Shown: positions 3,927-5,925 of the stretch, piece after piece
Numbering within the stretch: the stretch's first letter is position 1
How the letters are laid out: each line of letters starts with the position of its first letter
NCBI GenBank assembly: GCA_021778515.1
Contig: JAJYCJ010000026.1
Coordinates: 1 to 34,414, forward strand
From: Acidobacteriota bacterium
Lineage (GTDB): Bacteria > Acidobacteriota > UBA4820 > DSQY01
Reading direction: 5' to 3'
Length of the DNA stretch: 34,414 nt
Program-made: the position numbers and the translations under genes
Notes under the pieces: generated by a model
What the model was told of the DNA's origin: nothing
What the model saw: only the letters and a program-made list of their open reading frames with translations
The model's database searches: none

Positions 3927-4424
3927 TCAGTAGCACTGCGTCTGTATTCCCTCGGGCCACCAGGCGAAGCCGCTGTTCACCCAGACGATGTTGTTCTCGA
4001 AGCAGACGGTGCGGACTGGTTCGGAAGTCAGCAGCGCGGACAGGTCCGGGCTGTCAGGGACCCCCTCGAGGCCCAGGCACCGGATGCCGAAGTACTGGTT
4101 GTCGGTGGTGGTGGAGTACTGATACTTGTGGGACCACGGATCGGGGTTGGGAAGCTTGATGATGTAGTACGGGACGATGGCGGATACGGGAATGGCAGAG
4201 TCGGAATTGGTCCAGGTCGTGTCGGCCGGCGGGACCATGCCCGTATCCGTCGTGTAAGAGGTGATGGCGGTGGCCAGGCCGTGCATTTCCGCCATGGCGC
4301 GCTTCTGGCGGGCCCGGTTCATGGCCATCTGGTAGTTGGGAACGAGGATGGCGACCAGGATGGCGATGATCGCCATCACGATAAGGACCTCGATCAGGGT
4401 GAATCCGTCCCCTCCACGGCGCAT
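3927..4424 (-). CDS. Type IV pilin-like / GspG-like pseudopilin
   Basis: A 165-residue prepilin. The N terminus MRRGGDG|FTLIEV has the class III signal cut by prepilin peptidase after Gly7, with the conserved Glu at position +5 of the mature protein, followed by a hydrophobic helix (residues 8-29) that anchors the subunit and packs the filament core. The block NPDPWSHKYQYS near residue 93 resembles the DPWG-Y-Y region of type II secretion protein G, and a C-terminal Cys pair (Cys141, Cys164) could form a disulfide. The start is the ATG at 4424, preceded by AGGAG; an upstream in-frame start at 4463 would lie inside the promoter. The gene stands alone, with no pilus or secretion machinery nearby, so pilin versus pseudopilin is unresolved. 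Confidence 0.88.
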   Translation of the reverse strand: MRRGGDGFTLIEVLIVMAIIAILVAILVPNYQMAMNRARQKRAMAEMHGLATAITSYTTDTGMVPPADTTWTNSDSAIPVSAIVPYYIIKLPNPDPWSHKYQYSTTTDNQYFGIRCLGLEGVPDSPDLSALLTSEPVRTVCFENNIVWVNSGFAWWPEGIQTQCY

Positions 4425-4458
4425 CGCTCGGCTCCTCAGCACGTTAGGCGATAGGAAA

Positions 4459-4474
4459 AGCAAACGCTATGCCA
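4459..4474 (-). promoter_or_regulatory. Sigma-54 (RpoN) promoter of the pilin-like gene
   Basis: On the minus strand the 16 bases read TGGCATAGCGTTTGCT, which fits the -24/-12 consensus TGGCACG-N4-TTGCW with both invariant GG and GC pairs at correct spacing. Transcription would begin near 4448, leaving a leader of about 24 bases that contains the AGGAG site and the ATG at 4424. A sigma-54 promoter implies an ATP-driven activator bound upstream; none is encoded in the window. Confidence 0.8.
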
Positions 4475-4580
4475 TCTGTAACTGGAACACAATCATGGAG
4501 TTAGTCCAGGAGCGGTCACTCTTTGTCACCCGGGGTGAGAGGATGTGTCATCCGAGGGTCGTTCCGTGGCCGCGCGTCGT

Positions 4581-5705
4581 TCAGGCCGTTCGGAGGGTGA
4601 TGCGAAGGATCTCGGAGCGATGGAAGAGCCGCATGCGCGGCCCCCAGGTTCCGGTGCCCCGGCTCACCACGAGTTCCATTCCCCCGACGCGGAAGGAGCC
4701 CGCGAGATAGGGGTAGGAGAGGCGGACCAGATACCCGAAGGGCCAGATCTGGCCGGCGTGGGTGTGTCCCGACAGCATGAGCCCCACGCCGAGTTCGGAG
4801 GCGCGCTGAACCTCCAGGGGGCTGTGGCAGAGGAACAGGGTCGCTCCCGGCGGGCGTCCCCCGAGGGCTCTCTCCAGCGGGTGATCGCGAAGGCCGAACT
4901 GGCGCCGGGCGGTCAGGTCGTCCACCCCGGCGAGGATGAGCCCCGGAGCCGCCTCCTCCCACTGATCGCGCAGCACGTGGAACCCCGCGCCCTTCAGGAG
5001 AGTCGCGGAGCCCTCCAGCCCGGCGTAAAACTCATGGTTGCCGGTCACGGCCCAGACGCCGAGTGGGGCGTGCCATTGACGCAGCAGGGGAACGAGGGGC
5101 TCCACGGCGGTCAGGTCCCCATCCACCAAATCGCCCGTGATGACGAGGAGGTCGGGCCGCAGGGAGTCCACCTGCCGCATCCGCTCCGCCAGCCATCTCC
5201 TGCCCAGGAGAGATCCCAGGTGGAGATCGGAGAGTTGCACCAGGACCAGCCCGTCCCTCTCGCGGGGCAGTCCGGGCAGGGAGAGCTCCAGCTCCCGGAC
5301 GGTGGGAGGCCGCAGCCCCTGGATGAGCGCCGCGGCCGATAGGAGCAGAGCCAGCGCCACGGCGGTCAGGCGGAGGGGGATGCTCCAAGAGGGCAACAGG
5401 TGTCCAAACCCCGTGGGCAGATCCACGGCCAGAAGGGCGATCACCGCAAGGAACAGAAACCCCATCCAAATGGCTCCCGCCAGCTCCACCGCGGGTGCCC
5501 AAGAAAAAGACCGGGTATGAACCAGAAGGCGGCCGAGGGGATAGCTGAGCCATCCGACCGCTGCGAGGAGGAGGGCCCAACGGCGGATTCCCGCATCGGC
5601 CATGAGGGGCAGGTCCCACAGGCGCCAGAGGAGGAAGAGGTGCATGCCGGTCCACACGCCCAACACGATGCCCAGGAACACAGCGAAACGGGTACCGTCG
5701 CTCAC
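4581..5705 (-). CDS. Membrane-anchored metallophosphoesterase (YkuE/YaeI-like)
   Basis: A 374-residue protein with an N-terminal membrane region of about four hydrophobic segments (residues 6-30, 41-62, 72-95, 108-130) and a C-terminal calcineurin-like phosphoesterase domain. All metal-site motifs are present in order: SDLHLG (159-164), GDLVDGD (191-197), GNHE (222-225), a CHSPLE His, and GHTHAGQ (313-319). Such proteins hydrolyse phosphoesters, in some cases pyrophosphate bonds of lipid intermediates, with the domain near the membrane. I take the GTG at 5705 as start because GGGAGG precedes it; the longer frame to 5795 lacks a ribosome binding site. It stands alone, and the substrate cannot be told from sequence. 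Confidence 0.85.
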   Translation of the reverse strand: MSDGTRFAVFLGIVLGVWTGMHLFLLWRLWDLPLMADAGIRRWALLLAAVGWLSYPLGRLLVHTRSFSWAPAVELAGAIWMGFLFLAVIALLAVDLPTGFGHLLPSWSIPLRLTAVALALLLSAAALIQGLRPPTVRELELSLPGLPRERDGLVLVQLSDLHLGSLLGRRWLAERMRQVDSLRPDLLVITGDLVDGDLTAVEPLVPLLRQWHAPLGVWAVTGNHEFYAGLEGSATLLKGAGFHVLRDQWEEAAPGLILAGVDDLTARRQFGLRDHPLERALGGRPPGATLFLCHSPLEVQRASELGVGLMLSGHTHAGQIWPFGYLVRLSYPYLAGSFRVGGMELVVSRGTGTWGPRMRLFHRSEILRITLRTA

Positions 5706-5925
5706 TCCCGCCTCCCGGCCACGCAGGCCAATGAAGGGGAAGTCTACCAAAGGATGCACTGAAGCGTGGCAGGCCCCACGCCCCGACGGCGGCACGAAGT
5801 CAACCCGCTGGGGTGGGGCAGCTACCCCACACGGCCCTCAGGCAGGGATGCTCTCGGCCGATCCGTACTCGATCCGCCTATACTTCCGCTCCTGAACCCG
5901 AGGCGGGTGTCGCGAGGAGGGGGGG

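Follow-up and report, generated by a model that had tools for sequence, protein, structure and literature searches.

A probable PilR-controlled sigma-54 promoter of a duplicated type IVa pilin gene in an Acidobacteriota genome

The site at positions 4459-4474 of a 34,414-nucleotide stretch of DNA from an Acidobacteriota bacterium (contig JAJYCJ010000026.1 of assembly GCA_021778515.1; hereafter the window) is probably a functional sigma-54 promoter of a duplicated type IVa pilin gene, and its most likely controller, judging from the DNA and from related genomes, is the activator PilR. A candidate type IV pilin and the candidate operator of its activator can be named across one phylum.

Results

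The promoter and its gene

The features discussed here are listed below, with their basis in brackets.

4459-4474, minus strand: sigma-54 -24/-12 promoter TGGCATAGCGTTTGCT (window sequence, matrix scan and genome pattern count)
4448, minus strand: predicted transcription start, taking the C of the GC element as -12 (inferred from spacing)
4432-4437, minus strand: ribosome binding site GAGGAG, 7 nt ahead of the ATG (sequence; kept in the relative G001)
3927-4424, minus strand: pilin gene of 165 aa with the leader MRRGGDG, the prepilin site GFTLIEV, a GspG-type domain and two C-terminal cysteines (Pfam, NCBIfam, AlphaFold)
4401-4406, minus strand: codons of G7/F8, where prepilin peptidase is predicted to cleave (sequence and N_methyl match)
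4581-5795, minus strand: metallophosphoesterase gene (PF00149) directly upstream of the pilin gene, a synteny marker of the orthologue group (Pfam)
4536-4550, minus strand: enhancer-like dyad TGACACATCCTCTCA, which departs from TGACA-N5-TGTCA at one position and begins 76 bp ahead of the -24 element (dyad scan)
4514-4528, minus strand: further half-sites TGACA-AAGAG-TGACC, the first of which (TGACA, 4524-4528) is kept in G001

The initial annotation had described a near-perfect sigma-54 promoter followed by a 24-base leader and a good ribosome binding site, and this description has held up. In TGGCATAGCGTTTGCT, the GG occupies positions 4473/4472 and the GC positions 4461/4460, which is the correct sigma-54 spacing, and a leader of 24 nt runs from the predicted start at 4448 past GAGGAG to the ATG at 4424-4422. 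The sigma-54 consensus is given in a passage of the literature as mrNrYTGGCACG...4bp...TTGCWNNw (PMC2725144). When 68,828 positions of the window were scanned with a matrix that is approximate, being derived from a consensus, the top score (16.1) fell on 4459-4474 and the runner-up reached 13.3; none of 20 dinucleotide-type shuffles of the window contained a site as good as TGGCATAGCGTTTGCT. A scan of the whole genome for the strict pattern TGGCAY-N5-TTGCW returned 26 matches versus 0 for the reversed-pattern control, and with one extra base in the spacer there was 1 match versus 4 in the reversed control. Moreover, rpoN, whose absence would have spoken against the initial reading, lies on contig C14 and the genome holds 23 strong Sigma54_activat matches, so that both the sigma factor and the enhancer-binding activators required by such a promoter are present. 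An Rfam scan of the window gave no match.

The metallophosphoesterase-pilin pair is kept in five relatives (G001, G002, G004, G005 and G007), and in each of these five syntenic orthologues a sigma-54 site precedes the GFT codon by 60-68 nt, the G001 orthologue carrying TGGCACGGGGCTTGCT at the position that matches TGGCATAGCGTTTGCT. The wider pilin family was recognized by a signature, Q at 34 and K or R at 35, numbered from the G of GFT. In two sets selected by protein similarity, a sigma-54 score of at least 12 was found upstream of 54 of the 76 family pilins versus 5 of the 65 other pilins; the remaining 22 of the 76 family members have no good site. These sets were used in place of the pooled count of sites (130/181), which was set aside as biased because 54 of its entries had been fetched for carrying the promoter. 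Across the phylum, the DNA form of the signature, outside which the window gene itself stands (GFTLIEV vs GFTLIEL), occurs in 119 of 396 genomes, and in 66 of the 119 a strict site stands ahead of the GFT codon, at a distance of 56-86 nt; reversed-pattern controls in the 396 genomes gave 0 matches. From the matches listed for signature genomes without a strict site, which cover most but not all of these genomes, 44 distinct family genes were obtained, and 24 of them score at least 12.

The upstream dyad

The geometry of TGACA-N5-TGTCA (the N5 dyad) is similar to that of NtrC-type dyads. Compared with the window, the G001 orthologue keeps the left arm and has a partly altered right arm, and its best dyad has two mismatches. 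In 67 distinct upstream regions, a set that includes loci fetched for the promoter, TGACA or TGTCA was present in 63, versus 16.9 expected from shuffles, and the N5 dyad was found exactly in 29; allowing one mismatch raised the number to 51 and allowing two raised it to 63, the corresponding shuffle means being 0.0, 0.3 and 4.0. At the 11 other gaps (0 to 11), the same regions yielded 0 exact dyads and no more than 2 when one mismatch was allowed. Within the similarity-selected sets, 53 family genes have the promoter and at least 150 nt of upstream sequence, and the dyad is exact in 23 of them and within one mismatch in 36; among pilin genes without a sigma-54 site, it occurs within one mismatch in 2 of 90. 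The five non-family pilins with a promoter include three (L148, L155 and L187) that have the dyad with at most one mismatch, one from Geobacteraceae (L207) with both site and dyad, and one (L204) with the site and no dyad.

In the 3.34-Mb genome of the organism itself, the sole exact N5 dyad is found 55 bp ahead of the -24 element of a paralogous pilin gene on contig C154. The N4 dyad, kept as a spacing control, gave one palindromic place (control 0). The remaining 24 strict sigma-54 sites of the genome include one, on contig C32, with the N5 dyad within one mismatch. Helical phasing of the distance between dyad and promoter was considered and is not relied on, the best period being 11.3 bp versus the usual 10.5 and the entries compared being related. 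Outside the core family, L155 (UASB270 bacterium, ~4825-4916) and L187 (Methylomirabilota, ~4723-4886) carry an exact N5 dyad ahead of a sigma-54 pilin promoter, and the operator may therefore extend beyond Acidobacteriota.

The pilin product and its surroundings

The 165-aa product matches N_methyl (1.5e-8) and T2SSG (PF08334, 9.9e-9) in Pfam. It had been called GspG-like, which is apt for the domain and does not extend to GspG itself, as the score of 68.3 bits against the GspG equivalog TIGR01710 is under the cut-off of 88.85. The product has the short leader, the G/F cleavage site, the Glu5 and the hydrophobic N-helix of type IVa pilins, and it scores above the cut-off of the IV_pilin_GFxxxE profile. 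Its sequence matches in the PDB are GspG and type IV pilins. The AlphaFold model (pLDDT 88.3, from 31 sequences) has EpsG/PulG as its top fold matches in the PDB, followed by type IV pilins, none of them at E<=0.001. The two cysteines, which might form the C-terminal disulfide-bonded loop of type IVa pilins, occur in the branch of the window pilin, and most other family members lack them. Also seen were relatives of the window pilin that have GspG-like domains on a single membrane helix and no prepilin site (L033 2722-3177, on G000:C45; L043, L044, L046 and L047); in these proteins the domain follows a zinc-ribbon-like stretch at the N-terminus and a linker rich in proline.

The scanned neighbours of the pilin gene encode the phosphoesterase and a thioredoxin-like protein. 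The gene is solitary, as had been noticed at the outset: the surrounding ORFs of the window include no assembly genes, and no gsp genes stand beside it among the window ORFs or beside its counterparts in the loci of relatives. Pilus assembly genes are present elsewhere in the genome. A cluster in the order pilB-T-C-S-R lies on contig C147, its kinase having the 6TM_PilS domain (PF25323), and pilM-N-O with a secretin lie on contig C40. The PilR/PilS pair that the initial annotation had suggested looking for stands beside pilB-pilT-pilC. There are six N_methyl matches in the genome in all and none on C147.

Linkage to pilR in relatives, and a second copy

The window pilin does not adjoin pilSR in the window, whereas pilins of the same family do so in relatives. 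Among 159 loci collected with the Pil proteins of the genome as queries, 25 signature pilins stand on the same strand behind a PilR-like gene. Five of these were left out: four second copies at 851-1101 nt, all lacking a site, and a Marinobacter entry (L197) that fits the signature by chance and has no site. The 20 first pilins that were kept, which include three fetched for the promoter (L209, L237 and L238) and a pair of near-copies (L016/L027), lie at a distance of 150-417 nt and all score at least 14.6; 16 of the 20 are preceded by an N5 dyad with no more than one mismatch. Such pilins often belong to a pilB-T-C-S-R cluster in relatives, and the order pilT-pilC-pilS-pilR-pilin is seen in several of the loci. 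With rpoN, PilS/PilR, the conserved promoter and the family directly behind pilR in relatives, the earlier proposal of sigma-54 control through a PilR-type activator is supported.

The paralogue on C154 is less diverged; it has a perfect dyad, a more typical sequence and like control. The tree unites the window pilin with its syntenic orthologues (92/88) and places them beside the C154-type copies, and a long stem of 0.77 leads to the window pilin and its G001 orthologue. The best reading of these relationships is that the window gene is a duplicate of the pilin that stands behind pilSR in other Acidobacteriota, and that it would since have moved and diverged.

Discussion

We propose that sigma-54 RNA polymerase would sit at 4459-4474 as a closed complex, and that opening of the complex would depend on an NtrC-family activator at the TGACA-type half-sites (4514-4550), most likely PilR after its phosphorylation by PilS. 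Once the gene is transcribed, the prepilin would be exported and cut at G7/F8, and the type IV pilus machine, whose genes lie elsewhere in the genome, would assemble it for a presumed role in the filament. The promoter with its conservation, the dyad, rpoN, pilSR, the pilus genes and the synteny can be read directly from the sequences. Control of the window pilin by PilR, and probably binding of PilR to these half-sites, is the best-supported explanation of the arrangement.

The kind of system, a pilin under PilR and sigma-54, is already known. According to passages of earlier studies, pilA of Geobacter sulfurreducens stands directly behind pilR and has an RpoN promoter (PMC2725144), pilA is controlled by PilSR (PMC6058289), as known for Pseudomonas aeruginosa and Myxococcus xanthus, and the NtrC-like PilR of Myxococcus is normally required for pilA expression (PMC6211767). 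The present case resembles the PilS/PilR-RpoN system of G. sulfurreducens in its sigma-54 pilin promoter, its PilR-type activator and the pilR-pilin order of many Acidobacteriota relatives; it differs in that the window pilin has a GspG-type domain and is a copy unlinked from pilSR. PilR sites are described in one source as a NifA-like TGT-N11-AGA with nearby GTCT elements (PMC6058289), whereas here a sharp TGACA-N5-TGTCA dyad is found. Type IVa pilins of Thermus thermophilus also resemble pseudopilins of the type II secretion system (T2SS), in structure GspI and GspJ (PMC5131608), while the likeness here is to GspG. No literature on pilus control in Acidobacteria was found by title or by the start of the abstract, and the main text of a 2025 comparison of sigma-54 regulons (PMC12316311) contains neither "Acidobacteri" nor "PilR". 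A Holophaga genome study reports e-pili candidates similar to PilA, in passages that say nothing on control (PMC7399161). What is new is the apparent spread of the system across Acidobacteriota with a GspG-type pilin, the candidate operator sequence and the putative unlinked duplicate. The pair of promoter and activator site precedes related pilins across much of Acidobacteriota, which extends a known pilus switch to a group that has received little study. Furthermore, genes annotated as GspG in Acidobacteriota may be pilus subunits, and the operator offers a simple handle for PilR targets in uncultured genomes.

Several other explanations were considered. Short motifs arise by chance, and the gene could be served by another promoter; we regard this as hardly credible, given the phylum-wide co-occurrence, and a chance match is rejected on the spacing control, the shuffles and the conservation. 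That the promoter is real and answers to an NtrC-family protein other than PilR is a more serious suggestion, which we nevertheless consider unlikely. Another activator could act because the genome has 23 strong Sigma54_activat matches, the pilin no longer adjoins pilR in this lineage, and a second NtrC-like regulator acts on pilus expression in Myxococcus, according to a passage of PMC6211767; against this, relatives have this promoter and dyad immediately after pilR, and a Geobacteraceae pilin promoter with a PilR-like gene nearby contains the N5 dyad too. We think it quite improbable that the product is the major pseudopilin GspG of a T2SS with an incidental sigma-54 promoter. The window pilin does share the PF08334 domain family and the fold class of GspG/PulG/EpsG, as the T2SSG match and the leading EpsG/PulG fold matches indicate, but it fails TIGR01710 and has no T2SS linkage, its family is tied to pilBTCSR in relatives, and the GspD-like secretin on contig C46 has its own pilin-type gene nearby. 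The initial annotation had left the choice between a regulated major pilin and a specialised pseudopilin; a type IV pilin of the PilR-controlled kind is now favoured, and a T2SS pseudopilin is disfavoured.

A further explanation is a refinement of PilR control of a type IVa pilin and is not at odds with it. The window gene may encode a second or specialised pilin, and there is about an even chance that the main subunit comes from the C154 paralogue, with the window gene supplying, under the same switch, a subunit that is minor, alternative or condition-specific. The two paralogues appear to be under like control, and the window gene need not be the main subunit because the C154 copy has the perfect dyad and the more typical sequence; the weaker dyad of the window gene and the 0.77 stem shared with its G001 orthologue point the same way. 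However, the window gene has been retained in five relatives with promoter and synteny, and it is therefore not decaying.

Additional observations

The site on C32 (G000:C32:5265-5280; L088 1501-1516; L324) is a third sigma-54 site with an N5 dyad, which has one mismatch and stands 55 bp in front. It leads to a long leader with two tandem c-di-GMP-II aptamers (Rfam 62.0 and 60.7 bits, cut-off 53.5), and the gene after these riboswitches encodes a protein of 363 aa whose start is signal-like and for which Pfam gave no match. We tentatively raise the possibility, which we hold to be rather doubtful, of a phylum-wide PilR regulon, marked by TGACA-N5-TGTCA and sigma-54, that has been freed from pilSR here and co-regulates two pilins and a riboswitch-led secreted protein. 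If this were true, one switch would join PilR with c-di-GMP for the choice of pilin. PilB (L121 9479-11191, on G000:C147) has an MshEN domain, and its N-terminus matches an NCBIfam c-di-GMP-binding motif; pilus extension may therefore also depend on c-di-GMP.

Strict sigma-54 sites also occur just before response-regulator-type genes, at G000:C61:16775-16790 and G000:C162:32375-32390, and one of these genes encodes a 472-aa protein that overlaps a Sigma54_activat match. The position of the two sites suggests auto- or cross-regulation among activators.
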